Below are positions 3,377 to 27,467 of a stretch of DNA of 28,043 nt, piece after piece; within the stretch, counting starts at the first letter, position 1; the number at the start of each line of letters is the position of its first letter. The stretch spans positions 64,001-92,043 of the IMG/VR virus record IMGVR_UViG_3300033552_000003. One strand, given 5' to 3'. A program made the position numbers and the translations under genes. A model generated the notes under the pieces. It did not search any database. It was not told the DNA's origin and saw only the letters and a list, made by a program, of their open reading frames with translations. The stretch is from a virus.

Positions 3377-3394
3377 AAAACTACAGTATTTTTT

Positions 3395-3430
3395 TTACAA
3401 AGATACACATAATTTTATTGCGATGCACAT
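3395..3430 (-). pseudogene. Start-codon stub of the amidotransferase gene
   Basis: ATG at 3430 encodes MCIAIKLCVSL then stops. Its first five codons (ATG TGC ATC GCA ATA) match the start of the amidotransferase at 2756 (ATG TGT ATC GGT ATA, MCIGI) at 11 of 15 bases. It lies 14 nt after the amidoligase gene, where that gene would have begun before the endonuclease gene entered. I read it as the displaced original 5' end. A chance match is possible because the match is short. Confidence 0.5.
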
Positions 3431-3443
3431 GTGTTTTTATATT

Positions 3444-5075
3444 TTATAATATTATTGAATCTAAATCTGTTTCTGATAAATAATTTATACTACTACTACT
3501 ACTTGTAATAGTAATAGGTACATTACTTGCAGTTCTAGATCTAAGTGGTAAAGATAAACTTCCTAAAGTAATAACACTACCCGTATCTATACTATCCTTT
3601 TTTGGTATTTTTAAAGCAGTTTTAAGTTTTTTTAATTTTTTTGTAGCTTTTTCTATTTGATTAATAGTATAAATTCCTTCAAGGTCTCTTTCAAATTTAA
3701 TAGCAGTAGAAACTAGATTATTAAATTTCTCTAAATCTTTATAAATATCTTTTGTAAATAATTTATAAAGTTTATGTTTAGGATCAGTTGCTAACTGAAG
3801 CACTTCTAGAAAAGAAATACCTAAGTTTTCAAACATAATCTTAAATAGATTTATTCTAAATTCTAATTGTCCAAATTCTCTTACAGCAGATATAATTCTA
3901 AATTCTACTACACCATTGTTTTTAGTTCTTACACTTTGATATTTATCTGTATCATAAATAAGATCAGCTACTTTTTTAGCTTTACTATAAGTTCCATTAG
4001 CTCTTCCTTTGTATAAAGCATAAATTAACGGCAACCATCCATTTAAAGCAATTAAAGTTTCGTTAGCAGTTTTACCTTGAATAGATACATTTATATGACC
4101 TCCAGCATTATTAATATGAGGAATATCTATAAAATTTTTTACTTTTTCAAAATGAGATAATATTTTTTGATCATATAAATCTAAAATAGGAGATATTAAT
4201 TCAAATCCATCATCTACTGAACTATCTTTTTCTAAAACAAAACCTGTTGTGTTTAAAATATCATATTTATCAAAATCAAATTCAGGCATTTGTGATTTTT
4301 CAATTTCAAATCCTATTTTAAATTTACTATCGTTAGAAAAATCTTTTGTGTTATTAGAATGATAACAAAATAAACTATCTTCATCTTCTTCTTCTTCTGG
4401 TAAATCTTCATTTTCATGATACCATTCATTTGTTACATCTGACCAATTTGCGTCATCTCTAGAACAATATTCTCCATTATGTAACAAAACAATATAATGA
4501 TTACAATCACCTCTATCTACATAATATTTTATATAAGTATATTCACCATCTTCTAATGTTATAGTATTGTCAACATGTGTTATTTTAGTACTTAGTCTGT
4601 TATTACATCTTGCTTCAACAGAATCTTCTGCTAATATATAATCGCCTTTAAATTCATCGTTAGTTATTAGTTCTTCATCAATTTCTAAATGATACCATAC
4701 ATCTTCTATTTCACAACATTTGTATCTTAAACAAGTATATCCTTCATGATTGATAACTTCATCTTGTAATCCATTATAATCTTCTGGTAAATAATGTAAT
4801 TCTGGATATTCGTATTTTGGCATATTTTCTATTTCTTTTTGTGTTAATAATTTAAAATGATTGTGATGAGAATTCCATACCCAACCTCTTGCTCCAGCTA
4901 AATCGAATTTAATATTATATCCATTATTGTGATAATTTTTAAAACATTCCGTAATTTTTACAACCTTACCTACAAATCTATTCATTTCTGAAACCCAATC
5001 AGATGTACCTTGTGTTATAACTACTAAATCTCCTATTTTATATTCTACTATATTAGTATTAAGTTCTTCTGGCAT
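3444..5075 (-). CDS. Amidoligase (COOH-NH2 ligase family) with N-terminal SH3-like region
   Basis: 543 residues. The core from about 250 on shows features of the amidoligase family related to glutamine synthetase, which joins an amine to a carboxylate using ATP: KIGFEIEKSQ (conserved GxExE-like start), a FVLEKDSSV strand and FELISPI, AGGHINVSIQG (His in GGHIN), then VVEFRIISA and FEFRIN-like LEFRINLFK. The first 100 residues look like an SH3/KOW-type barrel (YKIGDLVVITQG, FVGKVVKI), perhaps a substrate- or protein-binding part, and an acidic linker (LPEEEEDEDS) joins the halves. In other phages and bacteria such ligases occur with class II amidotransferases, and here one follows. The target may be a peptide, protein or cell-wall carboxylate; this is not shown. 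It starts 1 nt after the primase stop. Confidence 0.75.
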   Translation of the reverse strand: MPEELNTNIVEYKIGDLVVITQGTSDWVSEMNRFVGKVVKITECFKNYHNNGYNIKFDLAGARGWVWNSHHNHFKLLTQKEIENMPKYEYPELHYLPEDYNGLQDEVINHEGYTCLRYKCCEIEDVWYHLEIDEELITNDEFKGDYILAEDSVEARCNNRLSTKITHVDNTITLEDGEYTYIKYYVDRGDCNHYIVLLHNGEYCSRDDANWSDVTNEWYHENEDLPEEEEDEDSLFCYHSNNTKDFSNDSKFKIGFEIEKSQMPEFDFDKYDILNTTGFVLEKDSSVDDGFELISPILDLYDQKILSHFEKVKNFIDIPHINNAGGHINVSIQGKTANETLIALNGWLPLIYALYKGRANGTYSKAKKVADLIYDTDKYQSVRTKNNGVVEFRIISAVREFGQLEFRINLFKIMFENLGISFLEVLQLATDPKHKLYKLFTKDIYKDLEKFNNLVSTAIKFERDLEGIYTINQIEKATKKLKKLKTALKIPKKDSIDTGSVITLGSLSLPLRSRTASNVPITITSSSSSINYLSETDLDSIIL

Positions 5076-7879: not shown

Positions 7880-8941
7880 TTATGGTTTTAAATATTGTGT
7901 ATAATCTTGTGCTGAAGTAAATTCTTCAGCTTTTGGTAAGTTAATCCACATACCTACTTCTCCAAAAAAACAAATACCTAAATTAACATTAGGTTCTCCG
8001 TCTCTGTTTTTAAGTACATGTAACATACGAAAACGATTACCAAACCCTCCTGCTTGTGGTGTAATTAAATAACCTCTATAGGTATCTACACCGTATGTTA
8101 TAGGATAAGCAATAGCAATAACTACATCTGCATCTTGTCCTATATCAGCACTGCCTGAGAAATCGTCTAACGTAGGCTCTTGTGAATCAAATCTTTTACG
8201 TTCCATAGAGCGTAAACCTCTATTAAATTGTTGAAGAATAACAGGAGATATTTCACACATATTTCTGTATTTAATAAGAATTTTAGAAACTTTATCCATT
8301 TTAATTTTACCATCACCGTTTGCTTCTGATTTAGTCAAACTCGCATGATCAAAAATTACAATAAAGTGTAAGTTTTTAAATTCTTCTTTTAATACATAAT
8401 ATTCTGATTCGTCTTCGTCTACTAAAAATTCTCCATATTTAGATAATTGATATCTTATTATTTTTTCAACTTGTAGAGGCGTTAGAGATACTTCGTAAAA
8501 AGCAATGTGATCTTCTAATTTATCAAAGTAAGGAAGGTATTCTTTTACTTTCTTATAACTTTCTTCTGATAACTTTCCTTTTCTTGATAAAAGATATTCA
8601 TTGCTAAACACTCTTTTTTCTTTCTTGTAAATTTCTCTACTTAAACCTCTTAAAAACTGTTTACGAGCTTGCATTTCAAAACTGAAATATATGTACTCCA
8701 CTCTAACTTTTTCAGGATGTTGTAAAGAATATTCATAAGGTTCAAATAAAGCTATTTGATTAGCTAAAGACGATTTTCCAGAACTTGTATCTCCACCAAA
8801 AACATAATAAGTAGATTTTTGAATTCCGTATATGATTCCATCTAATTTAGGTAAACCTGTAGGTAGACCCATATTAAGACCTTTTATACCTTTTTCAATA
8901 TCTTCTATTATCTGATCACTTATTCTTTTTTTTTTAGACAT
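7880..8941 (-). CDS. Replicative DNA helicase, DnaB/SF4 type
   Basis: 353 residues from the second Met (MSKKKRISDQ). An earlier in-frame ATG at 8968 would overlap the upstream gene by 35 nt instead of 8, so I prefer 8941. Motifs: GGDTSSGKSSLANQIA is Walker A (H1); YIYFSFEMQARKQ is H1a with the catalytic Glu; HFIVIFDHASL is Walker B (H2); VILQQFNRGLRS is H3 with Gln; SADIGQDADVVIAI and HVLKNRDGEPN complete H4. It lacks the N-terminal primase-binding domain of bacterial DnaB, as is common for phage forms. It unwinds DNA ahead of the family B polymerase and pairs with the primase at 5077. The gene before it may encode a loader or initiator. Confidence 0.88.
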   Translation of the reverse strand: MSKKKRISDQIIEDIEKGIKGLNMGLPTGLPKLDGIIYGIQKSTYYVFGGDTSSGKSSLANQIALFEPYEYSLQHPEKVRVEYIYFSFEMQARKQFLRGLSREIYKKEKRVFSNEYLLSRKGKLSEESYKKVKEYLPYFDKLEDHIAFYEVSLTPLQVEKIIRYQLSKYGEFLVDEDESEYYVLKEEFKNLHFIVIFDHASLTKSEANGDGKIKMDKVSKILIKYRNMCEISPVILQQFNRGLRSMERKRFDSQEPTLDDFSGSADIGQDADVVIAIAYPITYGVDTYRGYLITPQAGGFGNRFRMLHVLKNRDGEPNVNLGICFFGEVGMWINLPKAEEFTSAQDYTQYLKP

Positions 8942-10465: not shown

Positions 10466-10719
10466 ACTGTTATTAATTCGTTAACTTCTTCTTCTACTTC
10501 TATACCTGTATTTGTAGGTATAGCAAATCTATTGACTGCATATCCACCATAAGGTGCTCCAGGTTGTATTTCTTCTAATACAAAGAAAGGTATTCCTGAT
10601 ACTAAACTATTTTGTACTTTAACTACAGTATATTTTTCCCCTTCTTTTAACCAATCTTTTTGAAAAATATCATTTGGTTTTCCTTTTGAGTTGATACAAG
10701 TGATTCTATTGTCTTTCAT
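10462..10719 (-). CDS. SH3-like hypothetical protein, start replaced by endonuclease insertion
   Basis: 85 residues. WLKEGEKYTVVKVQ followed by FFVLEEIQPGAPYGGYAV looks like a short SH3-type barrel, a fold frequent in this window. The 5' end (MKDNRITCINSKGKP) contains a 23-bp stretch that is repeated exactly at 11563-11585 on the other side of the GIY-YIG gene, where a stub reads MIVICINSKGKPR. The current start codon lies inside the 3' end of the endonuclease gene (14-nt overlap), so the endonuclease unit appears to have supplied a new start to this gene. Function unknown. Confidence 0.7.
   Translation of the reverse strand: MKDNRITCINSKGKPNDIFQKDWLKEGEKYTVVKVQNSLVSGIPFFVLEEIQPGAPYGGYAVNRFAIPTNTGIEVEEEVNELITV
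10676..10698. repeat. 23-bp direct repeat, copy 1
   Basis: Identical to 11563-11585. It encodes CINSKGKP within the 85-aa gene. The two copies flank the GIY-YIG gene with its leader, as expected if the endonuclease gene moved in with duplication of part of its target. Confidence 0.9.
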
Positions 10720-11524
10720 AAGTTGTAAATTTATAATGATTTTTAAATATATTTTCTTTATTCAAATATTTAAACAAACTACTTCTTTTTAATCCTGTAT
10801 ATTTAAAAGCTGCAGTACTACTATTAAATACAATAAATTCATTTAGAATTATATCATATACAAGTAAAGGATTACGAAAACCGAGTTTAGGTTTTACATC
10901 TATTTTAAGTGGTATATAATCTTGTTTGTATCTCCAAAAAGAATTGTTAGCTTTTATATTATCAGATTTTGCAGATTTAGAAATAGTAGTAGGATATATA
11001 TCATAAAATTTAGAAGCTTCTGTTATAGATTGCCATTCTTCTATAAAATTACCACTTATATCATACTCTATAACAGATTTTGAAAGTTTTTTAGAAATGA
11101 ATTTAGCTTGTTCATTTTTTGTCATACATATTTTTTTTTCTACATATTTATGATTTTCAAATCTTTTAATAGCAATAGACTTCATTCTTTCTTTTGCTTC
11201 ATTAGTATGTTTATATCCTAAAGAACCTTCTCCTCCATAAGTTTCATTTACTAAATTAAATCCCCATGTTTTAAATTGATAAATCCAATAACTTTCTAAA
11301 TTAAAATAATCTTCTTTATTATCTGTACTATCTAATAATAATATAATAGGTTTTAAATCTTTTTTATATAAAGAATTTATCCAATGACATCTGTGATTTT
11401 TAAATTTTTTTCTTTCATAAACATGTTTAGCTAATCTACTAGATAAAAGGTCAATAGTTCTACCAATATATCTTATTTCGTGAGATATTGGACAACTTAA
11501 TGTGTAAATTTTATATTTTTGCAT
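10706..11524 (-). CDS. GIY-YIG homing endonuclease with NUMOD3 and NUMOD1 motifs
   Basis: 272 residues. The nuclease domain has YTLSCPISHEIRYIGRT with the catalytic Arg in SSRLAKHV and a later conserved Glu in NLESYWIYQF. GEGSLGYKHTNEAKERMKS (about 95-114) is NUMOD3. Two NUMOD1-type segments follow: VIEYDISGNFIEEWQSITEA with a helix-turn-helix, and a second LLVYDIILNEFIVFNSSTAA near the end, one more than in the enzyme at 2771. It is free-standing (no intron) and inserted at the 5' end of the small gene 10462-10719, flanked by a 23-bp direct repeat and by a stub of the original start. It would drive copying of the inserted segment into related phages that lack it. Confidence 0.9.
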   Translation of the reverse strand: MQKYKIYTLSCPISHEIRYIGRTIDLLSSRLAKHVYERKKFKNHRCHWINSLYKKDLKPIILLLDSTDNKEDYFNLESYWIYQFKTWGFNLVNETYGGEGSLGYKHTNEAKERMKSIAIKRFENHKYVEKKICMTKNEQAKFISKKLSKSVIEYDISGNFIEEWQSITEASKFYDIYPTTISKSAKSDNIKANNSFWRYKQDYIPLKIDVKPKLGFRNPLLVYDIILNEFIVFNSSTAAFKYTGLKRSSLFKYLNKENIFKNHYKFTTYERQ

Positions 11525-17563: not shown

Positions 17564-17929
17564 TTAAGCATCTACTTCTTCATCAAGAGCAAGTAACTCT
17601 GATTTCAAAAATGTAATTTTTTCTTTGTGTAATTCAAGATTTTCTTCAGCTTCTGTTACTGCATTTTTAGCACGTAATAGATTAGCAATATAATCTTGAC
17701 GATTATCAATTGATCTACCACTGTTAATACGAGCAAGAGCTTGTTTTTCTTTAGCTGATTCTAGATTATCTTCAAGACCAATAAGATCACCTTCTAAAGA
17801 AGGAATTTGAGATTTTAATGCTGAATCTGCTTGGCGCAATACTTTTTGTGCTTGAGCATCAACGTTGTCACCTTGAACTGTTGCTACAAATTGTTTAACA
17901 AATGATTTGATTTTTGTACTAGTTGTCAT
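17564..17929 (-). CDS. Coiled-coil protein, 121 aa
   Basis: 121 residues; from about residue 35 to the end it is a continuous helical region with heptad-like leucines (LEGDLIGLEDNLESAKEKQAL, then AEENLELHKEKITFLKSEL). A short basic N-terminus (MTTSTKIKSFVKQF) precedes it. It uses more GC-ending codons than its neighbours, often a sign of strong expression, and has its own terminator directly behind. It could be a structural or scaffold-type protein, but no family is recognised. Confidence 0.75.
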   Translation of the reverse strand: MTTSTKIKSFVKQFVATVQGDNVDAQAQKVLRQADSALKSQIPSLEGDLIGLEDNLESAKEKQALARINSGRSIDNRQDYIANLLRAKNAVTEAEENLELHKEKITFLKSELLALDEEVDA

Positions 17930-17936
17930 AACTTTT

Positions 17937-19631
17937 TTAAAATTTAATTAATTTACTTTTTTGTTTTAATTGTATTTTTACTGACTCAATTTTATTTACA
18001 GAGGTATTAAGTCGTTTATCCTCCTTGGTTTTTAACAATTGTATTTCTTTTATTTTAGAAACTGTTCCCCATATTATTTGAGTATCAAGAAACCCACAAG
18101 ATATTGAATTTCCATAAACTAATCCACTGTCAATAGTTCCTGGAAGAATTTGAGTTTCACCAATCATACTACCACCTACTTCACACTTAATTCCTGGTGT
18201 AATGCTAATAGTATTAGAAGCAGTAGATATTAACGTTAAATCTGATTCTAGAAAAAACCAATTATCTTCTCCTGTAGTAATTCTTTTATTACCATATTTA
18301 TCTACAATATTAATTCCACGAGCACCGTGTCCATGATTAATACCTTTAACAACTACTTGTGCTGAACCTGTTTCATTAAATCCAAAAACAATTCCTTCTC
18401 CTTTAAAAGTTAAAACTTTATCTCCTATTTCAAACTTGCTTTGCATTAACAATTTTTTAAATTCTTTAGGTATTTCATGATCTAGAGCTTTACGACAGTT
18501 TTCTAATAAAATTCCTGTAGACATACCTTGTTTAGGTCTTAAATAATAGTTTCCTTGATTTGAAATTTCTTCTATTTTAAATATATCTCCTATTTTTTTA
18601 TCTGTACAATTAGCTCGATCTATTATAATAATAGCATATTCACCTACTTTAGGTTCCCATATTTTATTAAATAATTTAAAACATTCAGGACATTGCTCAA
18701 TATATATAACATATCCTTCTTTACAAATGGCTAATATACCGTTAGAAACTTTTTCAAAACTTTCTATTTCAAGTAATTCTCCTATTTTTTCATATGATTT
18801 CTCATATTTCCTATGTCTAGTACTATTACCTCCTTCTTGTAATGTTGTAACAATACTTCCTATTTTATATTCATTAAAAGAAGTTATTACATTTACAGAT
18901 TGCTTTATTTTAAATATATTTCTTATACCACTTTTATAAGCATCTATTTCTTCTTTTGTAGCATGTCTAAAATCTGTTTTACTAGAACACCCATTACCAT
19001 CAGGATTTTTTACTGTTTTAGCTTTTAAATAATGAAAATCATTTACTTGTTCAATATTCCAATACGTTCCTCCTAAAATAGCTATTTCTCCTTTATTAAC
19101 CCATCCTCCTACTTCTTCATTACATACAATATAATCTTCTTTATTATATAAATATTTAACAGTAGGTTCAGATTTAACTATTTCTGCCCATTTACCATTA
19201 TAGTATATATTATTATTGTAATCTTCTTTTATACGGTTAGAATCTACTGTAATACTTTTATCAATATCCCAAAAGTTATAATTTAGGTTTCTAACTATAT
19301 TTATACCACTAGGATGTGTATGTGCAGGTATATATTGTGTGCCTATAGAATAATGAATTCTAGCATATTCTAATAACTCTTCTTCAGATAATTCTTTTTT
19401 AATAAAAGGATTTACATGTTTATATTCATCACACCATTGTTGAAAAGAATAAAATATAGTATTTATCATTGTTACATATTTATTTTTATTTTTAATAAAA
19501 GTAGAATCTCCAGGATTTTTTATATTTATACTATCTCCACATTTTTTATATGGTACATCACATGTTCTATTTAATTTTTTTACTGCAAAATCCCATTCTT
19601 CTTGAGTTTTACAATGTACATATTTGTTCAT
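17937..19631 (-). CDS. Large SH3-repeat hypothetical protein, 564 aa
   Basis: 564 residues, the third longest protein here. It opens MNKYVHCKTQEEWDFAVKKL and then carries several barrel-like segments with the pattern of a Gly-Asp or Gly-Glu turn and beta strands: GGWVNKGEIAILGG, YKIGSIVTTLQEGG, PKVGEYAIIIIDRA, FEIGDKVLTFKGEG. These suggest three or four SH3/KOW-like units linked by helices. The genes at 21192 and 22903 share this style and the phrase LPEKW, and probably belong to the same loose family of multi-domain adaptors. No catalytic residues are evident. Role unknown; binding of protein partners is a reasonable guess. Confidence 0.7.
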   Translation of the reverse strand: MNKYVHCKTQEEWDFAVKKLNRTCDVPYKKCGDSINIKNPGDSTFIKNKNKYVTMINTIFYSFQQWCDEYKHVNPFIKKELSEEELLEYARIHYSIGTQYIPAHTHPSGINIVRNLNYNFWDIDKSITVDSNRIKEDYNNNIYYNGKWAEIVKSEPTVKYLYNKEDYIVCNEEVGGWVNKGEIAILGGTYWNIEQVNDFHYLKAKTVKNPDGNGCSSKTDFRHATKEEIDAYKSGIRNIFKIKQSVNVITSFNEYKIGSIVTTLQEGGNSTRHRKYEKSYEKIGELLEIESFEKVSNGILAICKEGYVIYIEQCPECFKLFNKIWEPKVGEYAIIIIDRANCTDKKIGDIFKIEEISNQGNYYLRPKQGMSTGILLENCRKALDHEIPKEFKKLLMQSKFEIGDKVLTFKGEGIVFGFNETGSAQVVVKGINHGHGARGINIVDKYGNKRITTGEDNWFFLESDLTLISTASNTISITPGIKCEVGGSMIGETQILPGTIDSGLVYGNSISCGFLDTQIIWGTVSKIKEIQLLKTKEDKRLNTSVNKIESVKIQLKQKSKLIKF

Positions 19632-19639
19632 AATTTTTT

Positions 19640-19806
19640 AGTTTAAGTTTATTAGATAGATTAAGAAAGTGCTAGTATTATAGTATTAATTCTTATTATT
19701 ACTTGTCGACAAATTAAGCACTCTCTTTAAACCTATTATTTTTAATGTTTGAGAAGTAGACTATCTCGCAATAGTTTACGTAGACTTCTACCTACTCCTA
19801 TTAATA
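19640..19806 (-). ncRNA. Structured intergenic segment, possible small RNA or leader
   Basis: 170 nt with no ORF. It contains AGTGCT/AGCACT (19668-19673 with 19717-19722) around the palindrome TTGTCGACAA (19703-19712), and a nested hairpin AGAAGT/ACTTCT (19752-19757 with 19784-19789) enclosing ACTAT/ATAGT with a 6-nt loop (19760-19775). The nested hairpin region is much richer in G+C than the genes around it. It lies between a 42-aa gene and the 564-aa gene. It could be the leader of the latter or a separate small RNA. Confidence 0.45.
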
Positions 19807-19935
19807 TTAAGATTTTTTAGCTTTTTCTTTTAAAGCTTCAATTTTAAAATTAATTAATGTTACAACCTTATCAATAGATTGTCTGTTTTCTTTTTGATTT
19901 CTTAACGTACCAATTGTTAAACTTGACTTACTCAT
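19807..19935 (-). CDS. Small basic helical protein, 42 aa
   Basis: ATG at 19935 overlaps the TAA of the preceding gene by one base (TAATG), and the ORF ends at 19807. The product starts MSKSSLTIGTLRNQKENRQS and ends in an Ala/Lys-rich helix. The overlap and the A/T-rich third positions support it despite its size. No family recognised. Confidence 0.65.
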   Translation of the reverse strand: MSKSSLTIGTLRNQKENRQSIDKVVTLINFKIEALKEKAKKS

Positions 19936-26124: not shown

Positions 26125-26427
26125 TTATTTAAAGTATACAATTAATTCATCTTCAGTAGAATCTTCATCTATTTCAAATACTCCTAAGGGAATGTTTTCA
26201 TCATATATTAAAAAATTATGGTTATTATTTGAAGGACTATGATTTCCTGGAGTAACTGTTTTACCTCTATATTCAGAAAAAACATGTTTAAATATTAAAC
26301 AATTATATTCTACTTTATATGTAATAGGTTTTAAAAAAAAATCACTTTTGCTTTTTATTGATCTACCATTAAATCTTGATTTAAACTGGGTTATTATAAT
26401 TTCATTTTCTTTATTTTTATGTTTCAT
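26125..26427 (-). CDS. Hypothetical basic protein, 100 aa
   Basis: 100 residues. Basic N-terminal half (MKHKNKENEIIITQFKSRFN) and a beta-rich, acidic C-terminal end (VFEIDEDSTEDELIVYF). It starts in the AAAAAGATATGAAA leader preceded by the repeated 15-nt element, directly behind the terminator of the long non-coding region, so it likely begins a new transcript or receives readthrough. Function unknown. Confidence 0.65.
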   Translation of the reverse strand: MKHKNKENEIIITQFKSRFNGRSIKSKSDFFLKPITYKVEYNCLIFKHVFSEYRGKTVTPGNHSPSNNNHNFLIYDENIPLGVFEIDEDSTEDELIVYFK

Positions 26428-26434
26428 ATCTTTT

Positions 26435-26449
26435 TAGTTTGTTTAGTTT
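26435..26449 (-). promoter_or_regulatory. Repeated 15-nt leader, copy 2
   Basis: Exact copy of 25136-25150, placed between the terminator at 26458 and the start codon at 26427. Shared position just before a gene start supports a role in starting expression. Confidence 0.45.
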
Positions 26450-26457
26450 AAAATAAA

Positions 26458-26490
26458 AACTCTCCCAAGAATTTAATCTTGAAGAGAGTT
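26458..26490 (-). terminator. Intrinsic terminator of the 1-kb RNA
   Basis: AACTCTC (26458-26464) pairs with GAGAGTT (26484-26490); after a small internal loop AAGA pairs with TCTT around a 6-nt loop. On the minus strand the stem is followed by TTTTATTTT. It marks a 3' end for transcripts crossing the gene-free region. Confidence 0.85.
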
Positions 26491-27467
26491 AATAGCTACT
26501 TACGATTAGCATAGGACTGGTACGTTTTATAATACGAAGAAAAGAGTCATCCAAACTTAATATTATACTTACGTTCCTAGGATACGATCTACATGGTAGC
26601 CATTGTTTACAATAACAGTATTTCCATTTCCTGTTATTATTACTGGTAAATTTAAGTTAGCATCCTTAGCCGAACTATTAGGATCACTGTAATTAAATAC
26701 CTCCTTGCTGTGTGTTACGGAGGAATACTGAATTCACACACGTTTAATTACATTGCTGAGAACTCATTTGTACATTGGCAGCATACATGCCTCACTATTG
26801 CGTATCTTTCTCAAGGATTCTGTACATCTAGCTTTACAGCCTGAATCACATTACAAACTCGATGTTGTATACAATATCCAGATCCTTTTCAGGATTAGTA
26901 TCTTTTGTGTAAATTACTATCCTTCTAAACTACTCGGTAGCACGGACTCAGTCTATTTACACACGGTATTTAATGTTTAACCGTTTACTATTCATTCAAA
27001 TATTTGGTCACGTCTCTTTTTATAATAGATGTTAGTCTGGGTATACTCTACGTAACTTATAACCACTCCAATTATCTATAACCATATCAATTTGAAAACC
27101 ATAGTTGGTATTTTTAATATTTAAAACTATCTGTCCATTTCTAAGTGGAATATACTTCTTATGAGCCTATTTATGGAATGGCAATCACACTGTATTTAAT
27201 ACTGTATATCTTACAATGAAAAACGTATCTTAGCATACTATTACGTCACACTCTCTTGTAGTAAATATTTCATCTTCAGCAGATAGTTTTTTACCAGACT
27301 CATGTAATAAGAAAACTATACTTATCTGGTAATATTTTAATTAAACACACAAAAGTTACATTTCAAATCCACTTACTCTTGATGTATATTTCATATTAAA
27401 ATAGTGTCGTAGGATTATCCACCTATTTCTAGAAACCCTTGGCTACAAGACATTTTGTGTGTTTAAT
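26458..27467 (-). ncRNA. Candidate large structured non-coding RNA, about 1 kb
   Basis: No ORF with good support exists between the stop of the gene at 27463 and the terminator at 26458, although the rest of the window is packed with genes. Hand counts of 60-nt lines give 33-42% G+C at 26701-26940 against about 20% in typical coding lines. Visible structure on the minus strand: a 15-bp stem (27453-27467 with 27340-27354) stacked on an 8-bp bulged stem (27443-27452 with 27405-27412); an H-type pseudoknot at 27283-27330; a hairpin ACGTA/TACGT (27223-27246); a 9-bp stem (26906-26914 with 26955-26963); a GAAA tetraloop hairpin ATCCT/AGGAT (26882-26895); and a 10-bp stem enclosing a second pseudoknot (26688-26752). 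Size, phage setting and complexity recall the giant RNA classes GOLLD and ROOL, but no class signature is recognised. A leftover of decayed genes is the alternative. Confidence 0.65.

Follow-up and report, generated by a model that had tools for sequence, protein, structure and literature searches.

A gene-free kilobase in crAss-like phage DNA

What is encoded in about 1 kb of phage DNA for which no gene is called? The question arises close to the end of the window, i.e., the whole stretch of 28,043 nucleotides analyzed here, which covers positions 64001-92043 and thereby the end of a 92-kb viral record. The window is crAss-like phage DNA, and the record encodes a capsid protein that matches its counterpart in phi14:2, a crAss-like phage (E 1e-31). 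Between two minus-strand genes, one ending at 27463 and one starting at 26427, no genes were called (26428-27462); the program-made ORF list contains no same-strand ORF of at least 50 aa there and its sole entry for the gap is a 75-aa frame with a TTG start on the opposite strand, in agreement with an earlier, sequence-only reading that had described a gene-free kilobase. This reading had also taken the gap to be the only one above 300 nt; it is the longest in the window by the ORF caller used, but the second gap (19632-19934) measures 303 nt. The raised G+C content was confirmed with 0.32 for 26458-27467 compared to 0.262 for the whole window and 0.22-0.25 for the flanks, though some genes of the window reach 0.34.

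Folding of the 1010 nt of the minus strand yielded -224.8 kcal/mol vs. -209.3 +/- 7.0 kcal/mol for dinucleotide shuffles (z -2.2, reached by 0 of 60), a stability above that of the shuffles that is only mildly unusual. By part, z was -4.2 for 26458-26656 (0 of 200 shuffles), -2.2 for 27288-27463, and -1.2 and -0.5 for the two units termed RNA-1 and RNA-2 below; neither RNA-1 nor RNA-2 folds more stably than shuffles, and the decisive evidence for structured RNA is covariation, not stability. A GNRA tetraloop is present as had been noticed before (AUCCU-GAAA-AGGAU). The proposed intrinsic terminator was recovered in part, as a terminator-like hairpin followed by five U (26490-26455, minus strand) is seen by inspection of the sequence and in the fold (-16 kcal/mol) but is absent from the list of a consensus terminator scanner. 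No Bacteroidota-type promoter was found in the window. At the 5' side, a domain closed by AACACACAAAA/UUUUGUGUGUU (27345-27463, minus strand) is a possible further RNA, and the strongly folded 3' segment (26458-26656, minus strand) is possibly a further RNA or an extension of RNA-1. As both are folded and no convincing relatives of 27463-27288 or 26656-26458 were found, these segments may be further RNAs special to the phage of the window.

Identification of RNA-1 and RNA-2 and their members

A search for relatives of P0001, the protein encoded upstream, yielded 26 viral loci, and comparison of the region with these records revealed short collinear matches in one of them (L013). These collinear matches include RNA-1, and RNA-2 was first seen as a block upstream of it that is common to the window and L013. 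The block ACAAATGAGTTCTCAGCAA, the invariant core motif of RNA-1 (26753-26771, minus strand), was used to scan a viral collection by its 17-nt core, which is present exactly in 112 viral stretches, nearly all of them sharing the same neighboring motifs. A second anchor, GATGTGTTGNNNCCTTGAGAAAG, was found in 101 stretches, of which roughly half had not been picked up before, and both anchors are present in approximately 117 distinct viral sequences, with a few spurious rows left out. As the members were gathered by exact motifs, motif conservation is exaggerated and co-occurrence counts are biased. For RNA-2, ATTCCACTTAGAAATGG gave 21 exact matches; two of these (L184, L191) were excluded as long open frames run across the match, and most of the others have a second RNA-2 motif. 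Profiles of RNA-1 and RNA-2 built without the window recover it with E 1.2e-11 and 4e-18, respectively, while the reversed window as control gives no profile match below E 0.2. The covariance models, which included the window, score its RNA-1 with 64.5 bits and its RNA-2 with 123.6 bits.

A scan of bacterial and archaeal genomes revealed RNA-1 in one record, a Sphingobacteriales MAG contig, and plasmids gave no match. One cultured phage carries RNA-1, i.e., Cellulophaga phage phi14:2 (Crassvirales; L149, NC_021806); at this site GenBank shows small ORFs that were later removed by RefSeq, and the RNA would end near GGGUGCUAA, at about 3359. Matches in Lak megaphages were judged to be due to chance, with DNA that looks coding and the other RNA-1 motifs absent. 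L015 and L005 were left out as RNA-1 members because they show weak matches only; the record of L005 (G004) contains RNA-2.

RNA-1: conserved core in covarying helices

RNA-1 (26657-26985, minus strand) is composed of helix P1, the arm P2, P3, P4 with the hairpin P4a, the core motif, P5, P6 and a GCUAA end, as delineated by homologues and covariation. The loop of the P1 hairpin is entered as UAAACAUU in the feature list and has the consensus UAAACAUUGA. P1 is followed by the variable arm P2, by AUAAAGAUACUA and by P3, whose loop AGUAAU holds an inserted branch in many members. P4 (UGUGUUG/CAACACA) encloses a variable hairpin and P4a (26804-26818, minus strand), a hairpin with the loop UUGAGAA that is kept in 107 of 121 rows and the helix of which covaries. 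Thereafter follow the consensus motif CAAAUGAGUUCUCAGCAAG and P5 (GUAGUUA/UAACUAC), which has a variable insert and is absent in some members, and finally P6 (ACCCUA.../...AGGGU), which precedes GCUAA. The invariant core of UAAACAUUGA, CCUUGAGAAAG and ACAAAUGAGUUCUCAGCAA sits in covarying helices with variable inserts.

For 33 sequences with the inserts trimmed, 95.8% of the pair cells hold standard pairs and double changes occur in 21 of 29 pairs, as judged on this trimmed alignment by counts and shuffles and not by R-scape; 0 of 500 shuffles reach any of the covariation measures and slid versions pair in 35-49%. P1, which is outside this pair count, is also compensated in several members (CGCU/AGCG, GUGG/CCAC, AAGC/GCUU). 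An R-scape-like test of the untrimmed MAFFT alignment placed the top pairs mostly in the expected helices, with E-values that are not firm owing to a heavy null tail and a loose alignment. UUCUCA of the core motif can pair with the P4a loop UUGAGAA, and a pseudoknot between the two is proposed; it is unproven as both sides are nearly invariant.

Several copies of RNA-1 per phage, in tandem or not, are found in L074 (3864-4670), also in L092 and L141, and in G069 (17911-18284 and 38135-39117). The variable arms of RNA-1 in L038, L047 and L069 contain inserts that resemble a tRNA T-arm, such as GAGTTTGAATCTC and CAGGTTTGAATCCTG. About 50 nt upstream of RNA-1, an element ATAGCTAAGCTGTGTAAAGC...GAAGCTA is present in a dozen loci (L013:9277, L064:8790, L076:459 and L109:6699 among them); it stands before a tRNA in L103, is preceded by TATATTTGCATAAT in L061 and may mark a transcript start. 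In L121, transcription from a predicted Bacteroidota-type promoter would begin immediately upstream of P1.

RNA-2: a separately closed RNA with a covarying kissing loop

RNA-2 (27126-27287, minus strand), identified by profile, model match and covariation, is closed by ACUAUCUG/CAGAUAGU. The closing helix varies from phage to phage, yet in 16 of 18 rows its two strands remain complementary for 8-12 bp; the 8 bp found in L199 may be a chance match, and for L193 the alignment uses a corrected 5' boundary in place of the faulty automatic one. Among 16 sequences, 94.5% of the pair cells are standard, double changes occur in 20 of 26 pairs and 0 of 500 shuffles match these values. The hairpin loop GCUAAG (27229-27234, minus strand) is complementary to the loop CUUAGAAA, with CUUAG at 27141-27145 (minus strand), and the two sides change together to GCCAAG/CUUGG in L021 and L202 and to GCCAUG/CAUGG in L204, yielding the covariant pairs CUAAG/CUUAG, CCAAG/CUUGG and CCAUG/CAUGG. 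GCUAAG and CUUAGAAA form a kissing loop, either within one chain or between chains. Two pseudoknots had been noticed earlier in the region; found here are this kissing loop, which covaries, and the proposed pseudoknot of RNA-1 with the nearly invariant sides described above. A diverged second RNA-2 copy was seen by eye upstream of the first in L013 (about 8690-8830).

These data bear on the explanation that the gap is plain spacer or the remains of a protein gene. The translations do contain some short stretches that look protein-like and both units have ordinary fold energies, as would be expected in this case; the covariation refutes it, as changes are compensated in many relatives and the homologues do not code for protein, leaving this explanation with next to no probability. 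A gene interrupted or decayed at this place was likewise rejected, as some frames are protein-like yet the homologues are non-coding and covary. Covariation is strong and the homologues that were examined are not protein genes there.

Linkage of the two RNAs

In the window, RNA-2 and RNA-1 lie 140 nt apart on the minus strand with RNA-2 first. Application of the covariance models to 47 records, which were picked for holding one motif or for kinship so that the counts are not natural frequencies, revealed RNA-1 in 34, RNA-2 in 22 and both in 12. In 8 of these 12 (window, G012, G033, G046, G053, G055, G067 and G069) they are at most 400 nt apart on the same strand; in G053 their order is reversed and in other records they are 4-47 kb apart. 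RNA-1 and RNA-2 are linked but separate units, because they are close together in these 8 of 12 records and elsewhere alone, reversed or far apart. The single 1-kb RNA that had been suggested for the region therefore gives way to two separately closed RNAs. They could still be domains of one larger RNA that functions as a whole in the phage of the window, to which their adjacency on one strand in 8 of the 12 records and the position of the whole kilobase before a single terminator-like hairpin would fit. Many records with one of them only, the reversed order in G053, the distances of 4-47 kb in others and the closing helix that RNA-2 has of its own stand against it, and we give this reading a minor, though not negligible, chance.

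Genomic surroundings and carriers

A preference for the strand of tRNA and tmRNA genes was observed: of 94 RNA-1 loci, 27 have a tRNA or tmRNA gene on the same strand at a distance of up to 1.2 kb, and no locus has one on the opposite strand. The sole tRNA of the window lies approximately 3.9 kb from the region. In L192, RNA-2 occupies exactly the interval between two tRNAs, and in L186 it stands before a permuted tmRNA. The next feature after RNA-1, sometimes within a few bases, is a tRNA, a tmRNA or an unrelated ORF, and the most frequent neighboring protein family is found in no more than 22 of 109 loci. This is of importance for the question if the RNAs act in cis, as leaders or riboswitches of a downstream gene. 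An ATG 25-40 nt past RNA-1 in several phages would suit such a role; as the downstream feature differs from phage to phage (tRNA, tmRNA, unrelated ORFs) and no neighbor family exceeds 22 of 109 loci, a cis-regulator of one gene is very improbable. For the downstream gene P0002 of the window no relatives were found. The upstream gene P0001 (27463-28043) belongs to phrog_15656, of unknown function; a homologue stands directly before RNA-1 in phi14:2 and homologues occur within 5.5 kb of RNA-1 in 15 of 109 loci at varied positions.

Carriers of the RNAs encode crAss-type capsid proteins in 19 of 50 records (two weakly) and T4-type Gp23 in 12 of 30 of the other records, the latter with up to 373 kb. 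The known hosts are Bacteroidota, i.e., Cellulophaga for phi14:2, and RNA-1 is also carried by the Sphingobacteriales MAG contig. This spread over crAss-type and T4-type carriers implies transfer of the RNAs between unrelated phages or their persistence in them. With unrelated carriers, scattered positions, tandem copies and a sharp 3' end, it might be asked if they are selfish mobile RNAs, intron-like or of the guide-RNA type, and not genes for phage functions. There is no Rfam match to an intron, HEARO or another mobile-element RNA, the common neighbors are listed without a shared nuclease or transposase family (one six-locus family appears endonuclease-like by eye), and interrupted genes are not the location, which makes a selfish origin improbable. 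Elsewhere in the window, the 272-aa protein encoded at 10706-11524 has a match to the NUMOD1 domain, and its gene is possibly of the homing-endonuclease type.

Relation to known RNA families

The whole of Rfam 15 was searched with the region (E<=10) and with 35 related loci (E<=1), and no family matched over the cores of RNA-1 and RNA-2 in the window or in these loci. This includes the GOLLD and ROOL covariance models as well as OLE, HEARO, self-splicing introns, RNase P and other Rfam models; SpF11 and rliF on the region were rejected as their scores are far below the cut-off. Matches that reach the curated scores are tRNA and tmRNA and mostly adjoin the units, whose cores are neither tRNA nor tmRNA by ARAGORN or Infernal; in L193 and L028, variable inserts give weak or below-threshold tRNA-like matches. 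The units share location and strand with phage tRNA and tmRNA genes, and some of their variable inserts are T-arm-like. A literature search found RNA-1 and RNA-2 undescribed within a coverage that mostly excluded subscription papers and preprints, so that a prior report is possible. With homologues, covariation and zero Rfam matches, the earlier proposal of a structured RNA of a new class holds: RNA-1 and RNA-2 are families absent from Rfam that are akin to the structured phage RNAs of tRNA islands.

The assignment to the GOLLD or ROOL kind, which had been offered as well, was not borne out, and RNA-1 and RNA-2 are not members of either. GOLLD is likewise a structured phage RNA, often close to tRNA genes, with conserved and variable parts and kissing loops (PMC12286853), and some RNA-1 loci contain tRNA-like stretches in their inserts. 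Phage-encoded RNA genes near tRNA islands are found here too (27 of 94 RNA-1 loci), whereas one RNA with many members above 800 nt and a universally conserved 3' region is not: the conserved units measure 162 and about 330 nt and are separately distributed, and they occur in crAss-like and T4-type phages, whose known hosts are Bacteroidota. ROOL, whose function is unknown, is also a pseudoknot-rich RNA of phages or prophages and lies near tRNA islands (PMC12286853); RNA-1 and RNA-2 are smaller and differ in sequence and helices. Both GOLLD, with 14 chains, and ROOL, with several, form RNA cages. A divergent GOLLD or ROOL, i.e., one large cage-building RNA, would agree with the phage location, the tRNA islands in relatives, the large gap and the kissing loop (PMC12286853); in view of the unmatched covariance models and of two units closed and distributed separately, we regard it as highly improbable.

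Possible mode of action

The conserved RNA structure, the location and the linkage argue for selection on RNA and not on protein. The gap is probably a minus-strand array of stable, trans-acting non-coding RNAs with at least two conserved families outside Rfam. The RNAs would be made from a phage transcript, cut out in the manner of the neighboring tRNAs from tRNA-type transcripts, and would act in trans as compact folded molecules during infection of mainly Bacteroidota hosts. GOLLD and ROOL multimers use kissing loops between chains (PMC12286853), which makes multimers an attractive possibility here as well; by this analogy, a scaffold or multimer similar to GOLLD and ROOL is a tentative suggestion for the mode of action, with the odds somewhat against it. 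It is more speculative, and rather unlikely, that RNA-1 and RNA-2 constitute one RNA-based phage machine, a movable RNA island together with tRNAs and tmRNA in unrelated Bacteroidota phages, in which the kissing loops of RNA-2 would join chains into an ordered multimer acting on host translation or defense.

To our knowledge, only a small number of large structured phage RNAs have been described, and a settled function is lacking for all of them. RNA-1 and RNA-2 recur in dozens of unrelated phages, often adjoining tRNA or tmRNA genes, and may help to show why phages keep such RNAs beside tRNA genes; they also explain blank or wrongly annotated stretches of crAss-like phage genomes. With two new families that are well supported and widespread, one of them in the cultured phage phi14:2 on Cellulophaga baltica, a bench-ready system is available. 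In phi14:2, a tmRNA was moreover found at 4031-4500 by ARAGORN and Infernal (46 bits, E 4e-15, just below the cut-off), which is unannotated in the GenBank and RefSeq records. A possible third RNA family, AAGGTTGAAATTCCAAGAGATTAA ... TTAATCTCTAAAATCTACTACATAATACAA ... GTAGTAG, is present in non-coding DNA of phi14:2 (3390-3560) and of L015 (about 3800-3960), and L030 contains two below-threshold matches to the twister-P1 ribozyme (87-140 and 1083-1138; 44 and 39 bits, cut-off 67).
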